A stretch of DNA of 30,618 nucleotides from a virus, in the IMG/VR virus record IMGVR_UViG_3300050138_000194, positions 1-30,618 of that record; one strand, 5' to 3'. This document shows, in pieces, positions 1,785-26,068 of the stretch. Numbering within the stretch: position 1 is the stretch's first letter; each line of letters starts with the position of its first letter. Both the position numbers and the translations under genes were made by a program. A model generated the notes under the pieces. It was not told the DNA's origin and did not search any database. It saw only the letters and a program-made list of their open reading frames with translations.

Positions 1785-1894
1785 AAAAAAACACCTTTTG
1801 AGGCTTAGAAAGTTCTGGCTTTCCAAGCTTTAAAAGATGTGCCATCGCCAGAACAATGGTACTTCAATTTTAGCAGATTCTAGGAGGATTTGCA

Positions 1895-2089
1895 ATGACT
1901 CAAGTATCCGTGTTGGTTCAGCGTCTACGACTTGGCAATGCCCAAAAAGAAGGTCATGTACTTTGCCCGTGGTGTCTTAAGCCTGTAAAAGATGAACAGG
2001 ACAAAATGGTCAGTAACGGGTTTGTTTTTCACACCCGTCCCTGCTACCACAATTTCCTGCACCCTCCGTTGATACTGAGGGATTTATGA
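1895..2089 (+). CDS. small zinc-ribbon protein
   Basis: 64 aa, with a strong AGGAGG eight bases before the ATG. CPWC at about residues 24-27 and a later H-x3-C-x-H (HTRPCYH) would bind one zinc ion. The ribosome site is the best in this region. It overlaps the next gene by four bases, and the two zinc-ribbon proteins look like a co-translated pair. Function unknown; such ribbons in phages serve in nucleic-acid or protein contacts. Confidence 0.65.
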   Translation: MTQVSVLVQRLRLGNAQKEGHVLCPWCLKPVKDEQDKMVSNGFVFHTRPCYHNFLHPPLILRDL

Positions 2090-2389: not shown

Positions 2390-2418
2390 AGGGGAGGCGC
2401 ATTTTTACCTCCCCTTTT
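2390..2418 (+). terminator. rho-independent terminator
   Basis: AGGGGAGG at 2390-2397 pairs with CCTCCCCT at 2408-2415 around a ten-base loop, followed by TTTT. It lies 50 bases after the last zinc-ribbon gene and just before a new promoter, so it separates the upstream unit from the replication unit. Confidence 0.72.
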
Positions 2419-2445: not shown

Positions 2446-2454
2446 TTATACACA
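2446..2454 (+). promoter_or_regulatory. DnaA box abutting promoter
   Basis: TTATACACA fits the TTATNCACA consensus exactly and directly touches the -35 hexamer at 2455. Bound DnaA could block or assist polymerase and tie transcription of the replication gene to host DnaA. About one chance match is expected in a window this size, so its position is the main argument. Confidence 0.5.
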
Positions 2455-2482
2455 TTGACAAAAGATTTAAAAGGAGTATAAT
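2455..2482 (+). promoter_or_regulatory. consensus sigma-70 promoter for the replication/early unit
   Basis: TTGACA at 2455-2460, a 16-base spacer and TATAAT at 2477-2482: both hexamers are perfect. Transcription should start near 2489-2490, which is where the paired region of the structured RNA begins. It follows a terminator and precedes the replication initiator gene. Confidence 0.85.
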
Positions 2483-2488
2483 GAAACT

Positions 2489-2591
2489 ACTTTGAGATTG
2501 AGATGTGGCGAAATTTTTTATACCTAGGTGTTAGTGTCCCCGTTCTAAGCCGTTTAATCGGCACGCAATCTCAAAGTTGCTTAGGGCGGGG
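2489..2591 (+). ncRNA. pseudoknotted structured RNA / 5' leader of the replication gene
   Basis: Seen: an 11-bp exact stem (CTTTGAGATTG 2490-2500 with CAATCTCAAAG 2566-2576). A 13-bp helix crosses it (CCCCGTTCTAAGC 2538-2550 with GCTTAGGGCGGGG 2579-2591; 11 Watson-Crick and two G-U pairs). A small GCCG/CGGC hairpin at 2549-2562 shares two bases with the second helix. The crossing order makes an H-type pseudoknot with a long first loop (2501-2537). The fold begins at the predicted transcript start and ends 23 bases before the initiator ATG. Inference: a control element for the replication gene, or a stand-alone small RNA. I do not recognise a known riboswitch or ribozyme. Confidence 0.65.
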
Positions 2592-2614
2592 ATTTTAAAA
2601 TATATGGAAACAAA

Positions 2615-3358
2615 ATGGACGAATTACAGGTTGAAAATGGGCAATTTACTAGGATTATTAACAAAGCGATTGATGAACTAGTTAAGGCGGGTTTACTAGG
2701 TGCAGAATTAGCTGTTGTCCTTTTTATAATTCGTAAGACTTGGGGATTTAATAAGCCAGAAGATATAATAAGTTTAACCCAATTTGAAAAAGCTACCTTA
2801 ATTTCCAGACCTACAATAGTTAAAACCCTTAAAAATTTAATACATAACAAGATAGTAGTTAAGCGGGCTTTACCAGACACGACAATCGCCTATAAATTCA
2901 ATAAGTATTACACTCAATGGGGTAGTAAAGCGGGCTTAACTAGTAAAGCTACCTTAACTAGACCTAGTAAACACCGCTTAACTGGTGCTAGTAAAGCGGG
3001 CTTAACACACAAAAGACATTCTTTAAAGACAATAACAAAAGACATTAGCGAGCAAAGCTCGCAAGCACAAGATTTATTTAAATTCTTCTATGAGAACATT
3101 AACCCAAACATTAACTTTGCTAACAAGACAGACAGACAAGCTGCTGATTGGCTTATAGGCAAATATGGTTTTGAAAAAACTCTTTCCGCTGCCAAATATG
3201 CCGCCTCGGTTCAAAAAGATAAGTATGCCCCCACAATTACAACGCCTTACCAATTAAAAGAAAAAATGGCTGCCTTAATAAAATTTAAGGGGGCTAAGAA
3301 AGGTAAAATATGGACAAGTTCATCTGCTACGCAACCTTGGCAACAGGGTCAAAAGTAA
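2615..3358 (+). CDS. replication initiator, lambda O-like (phage replisome organiser)
   Basis: 247 aa. Residues 5-85 match the N-terminal winged-helix domain of phage replication protein O: NGQFTRIINKAIDEL, then VVLFIIRKTWGFNK, then ISLTQFEKAT with the recognition helix and a KNLIHNKIVVK wing. The C-terminal part (about 150-230) resembles the partner-binding end of such organisers (FFYENINPNINF, ADWLIGKYG, TTPYQLKEKM). A linker of repeated SKAGLT-type motifs (residues 103-131) is the translation of four DNA iterons, as in lambda where the origin lies inside O. The protein would bind the iterons, open the origin and load the host helicase; no helicase loader is seen next to it. The ribosome site is weak (GGA six bases before ATG), and the G-rich run upstream is locked in the pseudoknot. 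Confidence 0.75.
   Translation: MDELQVENGQFTRIINKAIDELVKAGLLGAELAVVLFIIRKTWGFNKPEDIISLTQFEKATLISRPTIVKTLKNLIHNKIVVKRALPDTTIAYKFNKYYTQWGSKAGLTSKATLTRPSKHRLTGASKAGLTHKRHSLKTITKDISEQSSQAQDLFKFFYENINPNINFANKTDRQAADWLIGKYGFEKTLSAAKYAASVQKDKYAPTITTPYQLKEKMAALIKFKGAKKGKIWTSSSATQPWQQGQK
2681..2698 (-). repeat. inverted iteron copy
   Basis: GTTAAGGCGGGTTTACTA is, read on the minus strand, TAGTAAACCCGCCTTAAC, matching the iteron pattern TAGTAAA(11 bases, ending CTTAAC) seen at 2923-3006. It lies in the helix-turn-helix part of the initiator gene. Confidence 0.45.
2858..2875 (-). repeat. inverted iteron copy
   Basis: GTTAAGCGGGCTTTACCA reads TGGTAAAGCCCGCTTAAC on the minus strand, one base off the direct iterons outside their variable core. 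It lies 47 bases before the direct array, in opposite orientation. Confidence 0.5.
2923..3006 (+). repeat. four-iteron array, probable replication origin
   Basis: Four 18-bp units start at 2923, 2941, 2965 and 2989. Units 1 and 4 are identical (TAGTAAAGCGGGCTTAAC), unit 2 has a TACC core and unit 3 has ACCG. The shared frame is TAGTAAA then CTTAAC. Gaps are 0, 6 and 6 bases, so every unit stays in the same reading frame. Four iterons of about 18 bp inside the initiator gene is the lambda-type origin layout, and the AT-rich stretch just after (3007-3050) could be the opening region. The array also encodes the SKAGLT-like repeats, so a purely protein-level reason for the repeats is the alternative. 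Confidence 0.65.
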
Positions 3359-3726: not shown

Positions 3727-3762
3727 TAACTAACCCCCCAATAGAAAGGATTAAAGAAAATG
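3727..3762 (+). repeat. C-rich linker with ribosome site, copy A
   Basis: TAAC, a run of six C, then AATAGAAAGGATTAAAG and four A before the ATG at 3760. The same arrangement recurs at 5706-5740 with nine C. AAAGGA gives a normal ribosome site. Confidence 0.6.
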
Positions 3763-4080
3763 AAAAATATATATTTATATGGTGCTAGTGATGATTGTTG
3801 TGAATTGGAAACGGATTTTGGTAAGTCCGCAGAGAGCTACTCACAGTTAAAAATAAATAATGTTGTAGTTGATTACAAGTTTGACGGAGACTGGGGGGTG
3901 AGATTGCTTGGCAAAATTCCAAAAGGTTGGAAAGTCCACGCTATTAGGGGGAATTGTGCCGGTGATTTTAGAGATAAAGAAAATGCTGGGCAATTTATTC
4001 ATATTCAGATTCCTGATAACTTAGACATCGCAATTTTTGAACCTCAACAAGAGGAAAAAGAAACTTGGAAACAAGTCTAG
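3760..4080 (+). CDS. unknown early protein, 106 aa
   Basis: Not recognised. Mixed alpha/beta composition; the start MKNIYLYGASDDCCELE and the ordered beta-like middle (VRLLGKIPKGWKVHAIRGN) suggest a compact small domain. Two adjacent cysteines and one later are too few for a zinc site. It follows C-rich linker copy A with a good AAAGGA ribosome site and ends three bases before the first stop-start linker. Confidence 0.65.
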   Translation: MKNIYLYGASDDCCELETDFGKSAESYSQLKINNVVVDYKFDGDWGVRLLGKIPKGWKVHAIRGNCAGDFRDKENAGQFIHIQIPDNLDIAIFEPQQEEKETWKQV

Positions 4081-4109
4081 ATTTCTAACAGATAAACTAA
4101 AAGACTATG
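4081..4109 (+). repeat. stop-start linker repeat, copy 1
   Basis: ATTTCTAACAGATAAACTAA followed by AAGACTATG. It starts directly after a stop codon, and its final ATG starts the next gene. No GGAG-type site is present in the repeat. Confidence 0.75.
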
Positions 4110-4250
4110 AAACTTATATTTGGACTAATAGCATTATGTATAGGAATTTTGGCTTGGTACTTGCATATGAGCAAAGATGTTAAAAGTCCGCAGTTGTATT
4201 TCTTTTTAGGAACATTATATATGTTTTTTATTTCACTAGCTTTTCGCTAA
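4107..4250 (+). CDS. tiny two-span membrane protein, 47 aa
   Basis: Starts at the ATG closing linker copy 1. Two hydrophobic stretches, about residues 2-18 (LIFGLIALCIGILAWYL) and 30-45 (YFFLGTLYMFFISLA), are split by a short charged loop (SKDVKSPQ). Its stop codon overlaps the next linker copy. Function unknown; small membrane proteins of early phage regions often alter the host envelope or exclude other phages. Confidence 0.55.
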   Translation: MKLIFGLIALCIGILAWYLHMSKDVKSPQLYFFLGTLYMFFISLAFR

Positions 4251-4268
4251 TTTCTAACAGATAACTAA
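4250..4268 (+). repeat. stop-start linker repeat, copy 2 (truncated)
   Basis: ATTTCTAACAGATAACTAA, one A shorter than copy 1, beginning at the last base of the preceding stop. It lacks the AAGACTATG end. A second, complete copy follows 24 bases later, as if a gene between them had been lost. Confidence 0.65.
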
Positions 4269-4292
4269 TTTTTAATCCCTTATAGGAGTTAA

Positions 4293-4320
4293 TTTTCTAA
4301 CAGATAACTAAAAGACTATG
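4293..4320 (+). repeat. stop-start linker repeat, copy 3
   Basis: TTTTCTAACAGATAACTAAA followed by AGACTATG. The ATG is the start of the gene at 4318. TAGGAG lies about 35 bases upstream, too far to serve that start. Confidence 0.7.
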
Positions 4321-4515
4321 AAAACTGATATAAGAGTTAAAGTAAAAACAAAGTGTAAGGTAATACCCTTAGAAGTTGATAGGGCTATAACTTTCTTAAT
4401 TTGGCAAATTAACAGAGGAAAAAGTCCAAACGATGTTTTAACTCAAATTCAAGGCTCTTACGGCGATATAACTTATTGGGCAGTAATGAATATAATTAAA
4501 CAATTACCAGTATGA
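4318..4515 (+). CDS. unknown small early protein, 65 aa
   Basis: Not recognised. It starts at the ATG of linker copy 3. The N-terminus is basic and strand-like (TDIRVKVKTKCKVI), followed by predicted helices ending WAVMNIIKQLPV, which could be a small DNA-binding fold. Ends in an ATGA overlap with the next gene. Confidence 0.55.
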   Translation: MKTDIRVKVKTKCKVIPLEVDRAITFLIWQINRGKSPNDVLTQIQGSYGDITYWAVMNIIKQLPV

Positions 4516-4643
4516 CAATCACTTCATTTTGTAAGAATTGTAAAAAAGTAACAAAACATTTTATGCACAATGAGGAAGTTACTCCCAAACTTATTAAGTG
4601 CAAAGAGTGTGGGGAAGGTAAAGAATTAACTAAAGATTATTAA
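4512..4643 (+). CDS. tiny zinc-ribbon protein, 43 aa
   Basis: Two C-x2-C knuckles, CKNC at residues 7-10 and CKEC at 30-33, make a complete four-cysteine zinc ribbon in a 43-residue protein. Coupled to the preceding gene by ATGA. A TTATGCACA DnaA-box match at 4561 is part of its coding sequence and probably chance. Function unknown; nucleic-acid binding is the usual role of such ribbons. Confidence 0.6.
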   Translation: MTITSFCKNCKKVTKHFMHNEEVTPKLIKCKECGEGKELTKDY

Positions 4644-4647
4644 ATTT

Positions 4648-4857
4648 ATGAATACATTAAAAGACGAAATAAGAGATGTAATGTGGGAGCATCTTAACGA
4701 AATTGCCCCAATGATTCCTTTGATTGACTCAAAAAATTATTCCGAAAAAGAATATAACTCAATAATCGAAAAACGGAAAGAATTGGAAAAATTATATAAC
4801 CCATTAGTTGATAGTATTTCTGAAAAAGTAAAAGATTTTTTAATTAACTGTATTTGA
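4648..4857 (+). CDS. unknown small helical protein, 69 aa
   Basis: Not recognised. Acidic and helical throughout (IRDVMWEHLNEIAPMIP; YNSIIEKRKELEKLYN), likely a short helical hairpin. The start ATG lies four bases after the previous stop, with no clear ribosome site, so coupling is probable. Confidence 0.55.
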   Translation: MNTLKDEIRDVMWEHLNEIAPMIPLIDSKNYSEKEYNSIIEKRKELEKLYNPLVDSISEKVKDFLINCI

Positions 4858-4862
4858 TAATT

Positions 4863-5069
4863 ATGTTTTATATTGAAGTAGTAGAAGAACCAAGTTTGGA
4901 CAAACCCACAAAATGGGGAATTTGCTTAGGAAGCCCAAATCCTGATGTAACGCATTATATTGAAACCCCTACCAAGGAGTTAGCTTTTGAACTTAGGAAT
5001 AAATTAAATTGGTATCTACAGGAAATTGAAAAGCGTATTTATGAACCACAGGAAAGTAAAAAACTCTAA
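4863..5069 (+). CDS. unknown small early protein, 68 aa
   Basis: Not recognised. ATG at 4863 is chosen; a TTG at 4854 overlapping the previous stop would add three residues. The pattern is a strand-rich start (FYIEVVEEP, KWGICLG) followed by a long helix (KELAFELRNKLNWYLQEIEKRI). It ends ten bases before linker copy 4. Confidence 0.55.
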   Translation: MFYIEVVEEPSLDKPTKWGICLGSPNPDVTHYIETPTKELAFELRNKLNWYLQEIEKRIYEPQESKKL

Positions 5070-5078
5070 CCCCTCTAG

Positions 5079-5107
5079 ATTTCTAACAGATAAACTAAAA
5101 GACTATG
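5079..5107 (+). repeat. stop-start linker repeat, copy 4
   Basis: Identical to copy 1 over all 29 bases (ATTTCTAACAGATAAACTAA then AAGACTATG). Its ATG opens a 12-codon reading frame (5105-5143) whose TGA overlaps the start of the gene at 5140. Confidence 0.75.
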
Positions 5108-5139
5108 AAAGAAGCTAAAACAATTAAGAAAGGGGAAAA

Positions 5140-5244
5140 ATGAAACATAAATGGTCAAAATGGTGGCAGTTTAAAAAGAAGCGAGATAAAAGGCAAGAGT
5201 TAGACGATAGTATTTTAAAAACTGACCGGTGGCTAGATTTTTAG
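5140..5244 (+). CDS. tiny very basic protein, 34 aa, with 12-codon leader frame
   Basis: AAAGGGG lies five bases before ATG 5140. The protein is Lys/Arg/Trp-rich in its first half (KHKWSKWWQFKKKRDKRQE) and acidic at the end. The upstream frame 5105-5143 (MKEAKTIKKGEK) begins at linker copy 4 and ends in an ATGA overlap, so it may act as a translated leader. Could bind nucleic acid or membranes; nothing more can be said. Confidence 0.5.
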   Translation: MKHKWSKWWQFKKKRDKRQELDDSILKTDRWLDF

Positions 5245-5271
5245 TTTAATAAATAATAAGGAGTAAAACCA

Positions 5272-5493
5272 ATGCAAAGCGAAAATAAGAGTTGGGAAAT
5301 ACTACCAGTTTTTCTAAAGCAAGCTATTGATAGTGAAATTAAACGTATTACTGACATAGAGTTAAAAGAAGCCCAAGAGCGTATAGAAAAGCAAAAATCG
5401 CAAGTTATTGCTGGTGTGATATTACAAGTAGAAAAAATGTTGCAAGTTCAAACAATGGGAGAAAATTTAGTAATTACTATTAAAAAGGTCTAA
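5272..5493 (+). CDS. unknown small coiled-coil protein, 73 aa
   Basis: Good ribosome site (AAGGAG, nine bases before ATG). A long amphipathic helix spans about residues 12-58 (EIKRITDIELKEAQERIEK and onward), then a strand-like end (ENLVITIKKV). Probably oligomeric. Not recognised. Confidence 0.6.
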   Translation: MQSENKSWEILPVFLKQAIDSEIKRITDIELKEAQERIEKQKSQVIAGVILQVEKMLQVQTMGENLVITIKKV

Positions 5494-5516
5494 CCTCTAA
5501 CCAATTAAAAAGACTT
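5491..5516 (+). repeat. degenerate linker repeat
   Basis: TAACCTCTAACCAATTAAAA then AGACTT keeps the order of the linker (CTAAC, a short gap, CTAAAAGACT) with several changes. The next ATG lies 14 bases further on, at 5530. Confidence 0.35.
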
Positions 5517-5529
5517 AAACAAGAAACTT

Positions 5530-5709
5530 ATGAAAGTTCTAACAATAAAAGATGAAGAAGGTATTTTAAGACCAGCCGCAGGGATTTGGTCAGCGGAGAG
5601 CGATCGATTAGTTATGGCAGTAAAAGAAGAATGGGAAGCTAATATGAGCCAGAAAAAACAATTTAGAGGTTGTAGTTTAATTGAAGCGGAATTAACTGAA
5701 ATTAACTAA
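5530..5709 (+). CDS. unknown small early protein, 59 aa
   Basis: Not recognised. Starts MKVLTIKDEEG. Aromatic and acidic residues alternate (GIWSAESDRLVMAVKEEWE), giving a likely strand-helix fold. Its stop codon runs into C-rich linker copy B. No cysteine pair, no membrane span. Confidence 0.5.
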   Translation: MKVLTIKDEEGILRPAAGIWSAESDRLVMAVKEEWEANMSQKKQFRGCSLIEAELTEIN

Positions 5710-5740
5710 CCCCCCCCCAATAGAAAGGATTAAAGAGATG
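5706..5740 (+). repeat. C-rich linker with ribosome site, copy B
   Basis: CTAA, a run of nine C, then AATAGAAAGGATTAAAGAGATG. It matches copy A at 3727-3762 apart from the C-run length (nine against six) and two bases near the ATG. Confidence 0.6.
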
Positions 5741-5974
5741 AAAAACCCACATAAAGCCTTGGAAGCAATAGAGCGTCTTGTTGGCGGGGATTTTGGGTTA
5801 GATATGGAATGGTATATCCACGACGATAGGGTAAAGCGGAAAAACAAACGCTTGCTAGAAGCCGCAAAGATAATTACCGAGGTTTACTTAATAGCTCACG
5901 CTGAGGGACATTGTGACGTACACCCAAAATGGCAAGACAGGAAATACGAGATACTTAAACAGCCTGATTTCTAA
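5738..5974 (+). CDS. unknown early protein, 78 aa
   Basis: Not recognised. Helical N-terminus (HKALEAIERLVGGDFG), a basic middle (RVKRKNKRLLEAAKII), then HAEGHCDVHPKWQ with three His and one Cys that could bind a metal. Ribosome site AAAGGA from C-rich linker copy B. Its stop codon is supplied by linker copy 5. Confidence 0.6.
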   Translation: MKNPHKALEAIERLVGGDFGLDMEWYIHDDRVKRKNKRLLEAAKIITEVYLIAHAEGHCDVHPKWQDRKYEILKQPDF

Positions 5975-5993
5975 CAGATAAACTAAAAGACTA
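5967..5993 (+). repeat. stop-start linker repeat, copy 5
   Basis: ATTTCTAACAGATAAACTAA then AAGACTA. The TAA inside it (5972-5974) is the stop of the upstream gene. The next ATG is five bases past the repeat (5999). Confidence 0.72.
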
Positions 5994-5998
5994 AAACA

Positions 5999-6448
5999 AT
6001 GAAGAGTGCATTACATACAGAATTGCAAGGTATAGCTAAAAGTTATGCAATATCAAAAACATTTTGGGTATGCGGCGAGGAAGTCCCTATGCCATTAGGA
6101 ATCTGCGATGTTTGGGGAATGAGCAGAAGCTGGAATTTAAAAACAATGGCTATAGAAGTAAAAGTTTCAAAAGCGGATTTTCGTTCTGCTTCCCAAAAAG
6201 GTAAAGAAAACCATCCAACCCCATTAGGAAATTACCAGTATATTTTTTGTCCCACGAACCTTATATATCCTGATGAAATACATAAAGAATGGGGTTTACT
6301 CTGGTGGAATGGGAAAAGGATTATTAACAAAAAACCAGCACCCGAACTTGAAATGACTGCGGAACAGAAATTAGATATTTTGGTATATTTTCTTGCTAAC
6401 GGAATGAATCAAAAGCGTCCTAAATTATTGGAACTTCTAACCAGATAA
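5999..6448 (+). CDS. PD-(D/E)XK nuclease-like protein (MmcB/VRR-type)
   Basis: 149 aa. GICDVWG (about residues 33-39) followed after a helix-length gap by AIEVKVSKADF (about 50-60) fits the D...E-x-K metal-binding core of PD-(D/E)XK enzymes. The downstream pattern GNYQYIFCPTNLI and WGLLWWN is like MmcB/VRR-nuclease-type proteins found in phages. Expected role: cutting branched or damaged DNA during recombination or repair. The protein is about the full size of this family. Its stop (6446-6448) lies inside linker copy 6. The fold class is fairly likely; the exact activity is not shown. Confidence 0.55.
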   Translation: MKSALHTELQGIAKSYAISKTFWVCGEEVPMPLGICDVWGMSRSWNLKTMAIEVKVSKADFRSASQKGKENHPTPLGNYQYIFCPTNLIYPDEIHKEWGLLWWNGKRIINKKPAPELEMTAEQKLDILVYFLANGMNQKRPKLLELLTR

Positions 6449-6462
6449 ACTAAAAGACTATG
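6434..6462 (+). repeat. stop-start linker repeat, copy 6
   Basis: CTTCTAACCAGATAAACTAA then AAGACTATG. One inserted C shifts the frame so that the upstream gene ends at a different TAA of the repeat (6446-6448). The ATG starts the gene at 6460. Confidence 0.72.
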
Positions 6463-6804
6463 AAAACTAAGGAAAAACAATATTTTACTTCTACCCATAA
6501 CTTAACTTTTGAAGTTGCCCCTTGGGAATTTGATATAGGCGACAGATTTGAGAGATTTAGAATAGGGACTTGTGGCGGTTTGTGGCGTTGCAAAGACAAC
6601 GAATACCAGATATTGGCGATTGATAACAAAGAAAAAGGTAATGGACACTTAGAAGATGTTTTTGACTGGTTTATAAACTCTTGCAAGCGGGATAAAAAGA
6701 GTCTGGTAATTTTGGAACTTTGGAATCGCCGATTTAAAAAGCACTTAATGGAAAAACGGGGATTTAAGCAATATCATATAAACGATTTAATTTTGAATTT
6801 CTAA
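6460..6804 (+). CDS. GNAT acetyltransferase-like protein
   Basis: 114 aa, short for the fold. GLWRCKDNEYQILAI could be the central strands, NKEKGNGHLEDVFDWFIN is reminiscent of motif A (G-x-G then helix), and LELWNRRFKKHLMEKRGF strongly resembles the GNAT N-x3-K-x-L-x3-G-F end. Small GNAT-like proteins of this type recur in phages with unknown substrates. It starts at linker copy 6, and its stop (6802-6804) lies in copy 7. Confident as a gene, moderate as a family. Confidence 0.5.
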   Translation: MKTKEKQYFTSTHNLTFEVAPWEFDIGDRFERFRIGTCGGLWRCKDNEYQILAIDNKEKGNGHLEDVFDWFINSCKRDKKSLVILELWNRRFKKHLMEKRGFKQYHINDLILNF

Positions 6805-6824
6805 CAGATAAACTAAAAGTCTAA
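6797..6824 (+). repeat. stop-start linker repeat, copy 7
   Basis: ATTTCTAACAGATAAACTAA then AAGTCTAA. It contains the stop of the upstream gene, but the start-side end has changed (AAGTCT for AAGACT) and the next ATG is 19 bases on, at 6843. Confidence 0.68.
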
Positions 6825-25543: not shown

Positions 25544-25945
25544 TTAATTTATCTTTCGTGATTGTTTGTAAGGATTCTTAATACCCTTATTCCAGCCACC
25601 TCTAATTAAGCCATCATAAAACATATGACATCTACGGCATAACCTAATAAAATTTTCTCGCTTTCGTTGATATCCTTTACTTTTAAGTTTAGCCCACTCA
25701 AATTTTTTGCTTAAATTTAAACAGTTAGAATTTTCACACTTATTAGCTTTACCAAAGTTTTTCTTTAACCAATGATGAATACCCATATACCCAACCTTAT
25801 TACCAGTCCAAGTAGGACTTCTATCTCCCGACTTTGCTGAAACTTTATTAGCACATAATCTTGAACAAAATTTTGCACCACCAATTTTTACTTGATAATT
25901 CTTTGCCAAAAATAACTTATTACATAATTGACATTTTCTTTGCAT
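25544..25945 (-). CDS. HNH endonuclease (zinc type), minus strand
   Basis: 133 aa from ATG 25945; a GTG six codons upstream is possible. CQLCNKLF and KFCSRLCANKV form a zinc knuckle, GDRSPTWTGNKVGYMGIHHW is the motif common in such phage HNH proteins, and FIRLCRRCHMFYD closes the nuclease site (C-x2-C-H). Homing endonucleases of this type sit in phage tail genes. It ends base to base with the large tail protein on the opposite strand and is AT-rich against its neighbours. Ribosome site weak. Confidence 0.82.
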   Translation of the reverse strand: MQRKCQLCNKLFLAKNYQVKIGGAKFCSRLCANKVSAKSGDRSPTWTGNKVGYMGIHHWLKKNFGKANKCENSNCLNLSKKFEWAKLKSKGYQRKRENFIRLCRRCHMFYDGLIRGGWNKGIKNPYKQSRKIN

Positions 25946-25955
25946 AAATTTAAAA

Positions 25956-26024
25956 GCCCGCACACTCAGCTACTGACATAGCAAAGGCACGGGCGACTAC
26001 CAATAATATTATAGCCTGTGTCAG
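25956..26024. other. crossing inverted repeats in the gap before the fibre gene
   Basis: GCCCG (25956-25960) pairs with CGGGC (25990-25994), and CTGACATAG (25973-25981) pairs with CTGTGTCAG (26016-26024) with one G-U. The order is that of a pseudoknot. The 123-base gap (25946-26068) contains no clear promoter and ends AT-rich before the next ATG, without a GGAG site. Confidence 0.3.
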
Positions 26025-26068
26025 CAAGCAATATAAATATAGCATTTTATTAAATAATAAGCAAATAT

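Follow-up and report, generated by a model that had tools for sequence, protein, structure and literature searches.

The window, that is, the whole stretch of DNA that was analysed, is a virus record of 30,618 nt (IMG/VR IMGVR_UViG_3300050138_000194, positions 1 to 30,618) which encodes a phage terminase together with SU10-type portal and adaptor proteins. A lambda O-like replication initiator is encoded on the plus strand, and the following features are found at this locus:

2390..2418, plus strand: terminator-like hairpin AGGGGAGG...CCTCCCCT-TTT, read directly from the sequence
2455..2482, plus strand: consensus sigma-70 promoter TTGACA-16-TATAAT, 12/12 consensus matches
2489..2500, plus strand: S1a, the 5' strand of helix S1 (ACTTTGAGATTG)
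2503..2598, plus strand: possible leader mini-ORF of 31 codons that runs across the structure; its stop codon, TAA at 2596-2598, lies 16 nt from the O start codon
2536..2550, plus strand: S2a, the 5' strand of helix S2 (core; the extended form begins at 2531)
2566..2577, plus strand: S1b, the 3' strand of S1 (CAATCTCAAAGT)
2579..2593, plus strand: S2b, the 3' strand of S2 (core; extended form to 2598), containing a G-rich run and followed by TTTT
2615..3358, plus strand: lambda O-like replication initiator (PF04492, Phage_rep_O, E=4.5e-16; phrog_277/678)

The promoter consists of TTGACA (2455-2460), a 16-nt spacer and TATAAT (2477-2482). A first-pass annotation of this locus had proposed that a consensus promoter reads into a crossing-helix RNA ahead of a replication gene, and this is confirmed, both by the perfect promoter and by the O-like initiator. 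The transcript start that it placed at about 2489, on the first paired base, holds as a prediction: 2489 is the first base of S1, seven bases past TATAAT. The two helices cross as claimed (S1a-S2a-S1b-S2b; the intervening loops measure 30-35, 15 and 1 nt) and are slightly longer than the 11 and 13 pairs first given. S1 has 12 pairs (2489-2500/2566-2577), Watson-Crick throughout, and S2 has 15 (2536-2550/2579-2593), three of them G-U; allowing mismatches, S2 can be extended to 2531-2550/2579-2598. The core of S2 ends 21 nt before the ATG at 2615, close to the 23 bases first stated, and the extended form ends 16 nt before it. The claim that a G-rich run is locked up also held, the run lying in S2b. 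No strong Shine-Dalgarno (SD) sequence precedes the start codon of the O gene. The hairpin at 2390..2418 is absent from the sites listed by the consensus terminator scan; as inferred from sequence alone, it would shield the leader unit from upstream transcription. Within the O gene, the partly inverted repeats CTAGTAAAGCGGGCTTAACTAG (window 2678-3009) resemble the iterons of lambda-type origins.

The helices had been judged unlikely to arise by chance, and this judgement held. The summed stacking of the crossing helices is about -49 to -51 kcal/mol, and when the upstream region was shuffled 400 times with its dinucleotides kept, no shuffle reached the score of the window, the best being -29.7. 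When the whole window was scanned for this topology, the next-best place scored -33 and the best of six window shuffles -31.5. The plain nested fold of the leader has an energy of -34.4 and does not include S1, while a rough pseudoknot estimate for the crossed state is -41.7 (with a penalty of 9.6 kcal), so the crossed state is favoured here. These state energies are crude.

Two further candidates of the same layout are found in the window:

1785..1895, minus strand: second, weaker candidate, before an HNH gene (ATG at 1784), score -28.5
25946..26027, minus strand: tentative third candidate, upstream of a small HNH-like gene whose ATG is at 25945, score -32.9

The second candidate pairs 1854-1847 with 1819-1812 (S1) and 1840-1832 with 1799-1791 (S2), and the consensus scan finds a promoter-like TTGCAA-17-TAAAAT at 1895-1867; six of its 400 shuffles are equally good. 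For the third, only one shuffle in 400 is equally good. A TATAAT is located within its first loop, and therefore its S1a is perhaps not transcribed.

Two other kinds of repeated sequence were noted. A 28-nt repeat, GATTTCTAACAGATAAACTAAAAGACTA, has at least five copies plus partial ones at window positions 4080-6823, several of them immediately preceding the start codon (ATG) of a short ORF; it may be a repeated translation or promoter signal without an SD. A second repeated gene leader, CCCCCCAATAGAAAGGATTAAAGA(AA)ATGAAAA, occurs twice before start codons (window 3734-3766 and 5713-5745).

Searches by sequence did not reveal relatives of the leader. The first-pass annotation had proposed a search of Rfam; the O leader of the window matches no family of Rfam 15, neither at the gathering threshold nor at E<=5, and the same search with L310 gave just sub-threshold chance matches to miRNA families. 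Among isolate phages no DNA similar to the window leader was found, and the exact pattern of the window's own S1b-S2b retrieved nothing. In 50 related contigs, the weak DNA matches turned out to be short AT-rich stretches, and the pattern AACCTTGCA..TGCAAGGTGG gave mostly chance matches. Searching with the single O protein likewise revealed no relatives, and protein alignments were required. Similarity searches and Rfam miss the leader because most members keep only the base pairing.

The topology, in contrast to the sequence, recurs. Phages sharing the terminase were screened for O-like genes and the leaders of these genes were compared: the sequences differ, and the order S1a-S2a-S1b-S2b precedes the initiator in most of them. 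We then scored 146 upstream regions of replication genes from other phages, fetched with two protein alignments, at a cut-off of -32. Eighteen of the 146 score below this value, compared with 0/146 after shuffling. In the related contigs, 27 of 894 genes score below -32, mostly replication initiators and HNH genes. Other crossing-helix members precede HNH enzymes. The requirement for a U-run was removed from the detector once U-free members turned up. Two related genes, L026:14901 and L032:6355 (..CVKTYIKNNPAEY.. / ..CVRVYIKNNPNEY..), also have a crossing-helix leader, and neither is evidently a replication or an HNH gene.

The presence of the leader before DNA-binding proteins, together with the precedent of T4 gene 32 (PMC3014915), would fit autoregulation, in which the initiator or the HNH enzyme binds the pseudoknot of its own leader as T4 gp32 does. 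However, no sequence is conserved across members outside the HNH subfamily described below, and the same architecture precedes unrelated proteins, so we consider this very unlikely. Self-cleaving ribozyme folds, such as HDV-like ones, were set aside on topology, a judgement that rests on general knowledge of these folds.

Direct covariation is shown in one subfamily of HNH genes, A4, whose leaders keep part of S1 and the loop UUUC. Its members were fetched by the S1/L2 sequence alone, a criterion that put no constraint on S2 or on the three inner positions of S1. Of 18 pattern hits, 14 beat all 200 shuffles in an energy test of S2, and these are all 14 members of the alignment; the remaining four fail the test and are chance hits. 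In the alignment, 95.7% of the pair cells are occupied by standard pairs, and double-sided changes number 66, where shuffling gives 16.6 and none of 500 shuffles matches, while pairing falls to 33-44% when the partners are slid against each other. Compensatory changes on both sides are seen in 12 of the 14 pairs of S2. Of the three unconstrained S1 pairs, two are replaced on both strands in all variants and are never broken. Compensatory changes in both helices had been named in advance as support for the structure, and homologues that break one helix as its refutation; the former are seen in A4 and the latter condition is not met.

The same alignment bears on the possibility of a DNA-level element, such as an operator or an origin hairpin, for which it speaks that the O gene encodes a lambda-type initiator with internal iteron-like repeats. 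However, G-U pairs outnumber A-C mismatches by 27 to 4 in A4, and therefore the pairing takes place at the RNA level, on the gene-sense strand. Moreover, the elements are oriented alike, in the gene sense, and promoters lie upstream of several of them. A DNA element is thus all but excluded.

The consensus fold of the A4 alignment adds two covarying pairs to S2 (17-62 and 18-61), which either adjoin S1 or overlap it by one base; therefore, the full S1 and the full S2 compete. This direct evidence is limited to the HNH subfamily. The O leader of the window lacks it because no sequence-alignable homologue was found, and it is supported by the shared topology and placement.

The placement is shown for 26 members, in which 1-29 nt separate the end of S2 from the start codon. 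S1b and S2b almost touch in most of them, and the loop between S1a and S2a is absent in 12 and at most six bases long in 18. With little or no such loop in most members, the full S1 and the full S2 are mutually exclusive, as in a switch, while the first loop of 30-35 nt in the window allows both helices to form together. The approximate state energies are mixed over the 26 members, the crossed state being better in seven and the nested one in 16.

Reading frames adjoin the structure as well. An excess of mini-ORFs, defined by an ATG within 15 nt of S1a and a frame closing near the start of the gene, is shown: 12 of the 26 members have one, where 2.36+-1.43 are expected. Not all members have such a frame, and that of the window, 2503..2598, could by itself be due to chance. 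The mini-ORF ATG of L187, L127, L107, L068 and L197 is preceded, at a distance of 6-8 nt, by a -10-like hexamer; from sequence alone, transcripts are predicted to start at or near the AUG, with -35 matches that are often weak. In A4 the stop codon of an upstream ORF, often a long one, falls between about -30 and +9 nt relative to S1a, and S2b contains an SD-like AGGG run that pairs with S2a. Only four of the 26 members have an SD to hide, similar to the 15% background. More generally, an SD-like motif precedes the start codon in just about 15% of the 894 genes of the terminase-related contigs (L002-L081). This low background, obtained with the same test over all genes of these contigs, weakens the idea that the pseudoknot replaces the SD.

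These geometries were weighed against three further explanations. In the first, the leader is a transcription attenuator, in which S2 and a U-run form an intrinsic terminator before the initiator and S1 sets its formation, as in the rep control of pT181 and pIP501. In its favour, S2b runs directly into 4-6 U in the window and in some relatives (L099, L102 and L013). However, the U-run is present at the end of S2 in only five of the 26 members and in none of the HNH subfamily, S1 does not cover a strand of S2 as a classic antiterminator would, and the consensus scan found no antisense promoter-like site at the leader. As a general explanation, attenuation is unlikely. Termination at the UUUU that follows S2 in the window remains possible, and given the rarity of the U-run, attenuation may be a local variant rather than the function of the class.

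In the second, the mRNA has its 5' end buried in the crossed helices, so that decay depending on this end is blocked, any regulation being incidental. In its favour, S1a begins at the predicted transcript start in the window and near it in several relatives. Members of the HNH subfamily, however, are intercistronic rather than at a 5' end, an upstream ORF terminating at S1a; nor would a stabiliser need to abut the start codon. We regard this as unlikely, too. The third is a stand-alone small RNA whose 3' end is S2b with the U-run, an alternative which the first-pass annotation had also allowed. The compact fold with both ends paired and its own promoter speak for it, but the members lie just before start codons (1-29 nt), the U-run is rare (5/26) and the HNH-subfamily members are inside operons. 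It is not favoured and appears very unlikely.

We suggest that the leader acts in cis on translation and is coupled to the adjacent reading frame. This is the best reading at present and we lean towards it, without transcript, probing or reporter data. The first-pass idea that a leader pseudoknot sets initiator expression is thus supported by the kept topology and the covariation in A4, but the control itself is inferred, in the absence of RNA or protein data. Competition between S1 and S2 is favoured because the structure can hide the start region and because its 5' strand lies under the ribosome of the neighbouring frame.

According to this model, the O-gene mRNA would begin with a leader whose two crossing helices control how the following gene is translated. 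S1 would tie the very 5' end of the transcript to the strand between S2a and S2b, and S2 would close on the ribosome entry site just ahead of the start codon. The full S2 would hide the start region, and S1 would force the start-proximal part of S2 open. A ribosome that moves through the structure on the mini-ORF, or that stops at S1a on the upstream cistron, would then decide which helix survives. As it would finish beside the start codon of the gene, the two translations would be coupled. In the window leader, where both helices can coexist, a stable pseudoknot clamp in the same placement is envisaged. The action on translation is inferred here, as are the state that is ON and the coupling to the neighbouring frame.

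The host of these phages may be hinted at by their terminases. The closest relatives in cellular assemblies are 54-66% identical and occur in small MAGs, one of them labelled Candidatus Nomurabacteria (Patescibacteria group). A Patescibacteria-type host is thus possible; the hint is tentative because phage contigs can be mis-binned. Host genes were considered as a source of the leader, and in 260 kb of two candidate host genomes nothing before genes scores below -30. Neither a model of the HNH subfamily nor its pattern had a match in 380 genomes of the candidate host phylum; both are weak negatives. One candidate host contig, L284, contains strong mutually crossing helices on both strands at 1882-1961, with no ORF called behind them.

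The crossing-helix leader appears to be a class of RNA switch not described before, serving the production of a replication starter protein and of small DNA-cutting enzymes. As it precedes a replication-starting gene as well as mobile endonucleases, control at this point may be common among phages whose hosts are uncultured. A pair of long helices with abutting or overlapping ends, both covarying in the HNH subfamily, would be a simple and testable design for a switch based on geometry. It can further be speculated, with rather more doubt than confidence, that bistable crossing-helix leaders with touching strands, largely independent of sequence, form a new class of translational switch. This class would be widespread in uncultivated phages possibly infecting Patescibacteria, and the making of replication initiators and mobile HNH enzymes would hinge on a ribosome that passes over, or halts at, a neighbouring mini-ORF, which is often leaderless.

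Among known systems, the attenuators of pT181 and pIP501, driven by countertranscripts, resemble some members in having a hairpin and a U-run right before a rep gene. They differ in that the U-run is not general in the phage leaders and S1 does not overlap the body of S2. In the window, no pT181-type countertranscript promoter was found opposite the leader by the consensus scan, and S2 with UUUU is present before the O gene but is not called as a terminator by the terminator scan.

The nearest phage precedents are T4 gene 32 and the hairpins of mobE and I-TevI (PMC3014915). Like the window leader, that of gene 32 places a 5' pseudoknot before a phage replication gene. However, gp32 reads the T4 pseudoknot, which is placed about 67 nt ahead of the start codon, whereas the crossing-helix leader abuts the start region; the downstream genes are also unrelated, that of the window encoding an O-like protein and not a gp32-type single-strand DNA-binding protein. 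The RBS-sequestering hairpins of the phage homing endonucleases I-TevI and mobE are likewise structured leaders before HNH-type genes. Pairing of the SD inside a hairpin that precedes an HNH gene is seen in A4, where the AGGG-like run pairs with S2a, but not in the O leader of the window. The I-TevI and mobE leaders are plain hairpins, while A4 has a second, crossing and covarying helix.

The closest analogy is with the repZ leader of the IncI-alpha plasmid ColIb-P9 (Asano and Mizobuchi 1998, reference given in PMC10724649) and its IncB and IncL/M relatives. In ColIb-P9, a pseudoknot and a leader peptide control the initiator. By analogy, the window leader would work like that of repZ without belonging to its family, because there is no Rfam match, the protein is different and no antisense promoter was found: the consensus scan shows no minus-strand promoter-like site for an Inc-like antisense RNA over or just downstream of the leader. 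Both systems have a pseudoknot immediately upstream of the initiator start. The short leader frame coupled to the initiator in repZ has its counterpart in the enriched mini-ORFs of the phage class, where the coupling is inferred. Unlike repZ, the phage leaders have long crossing helices, often with abutting strands, and no conserved sequence. Their initiators are unrelated, being lambda O/DnaD-like (PF04492 in the window) rather than of the plasmid RepZ/RepA type, and the crossing-helix leaders occur in phages, where they are found before HNH genes as well.
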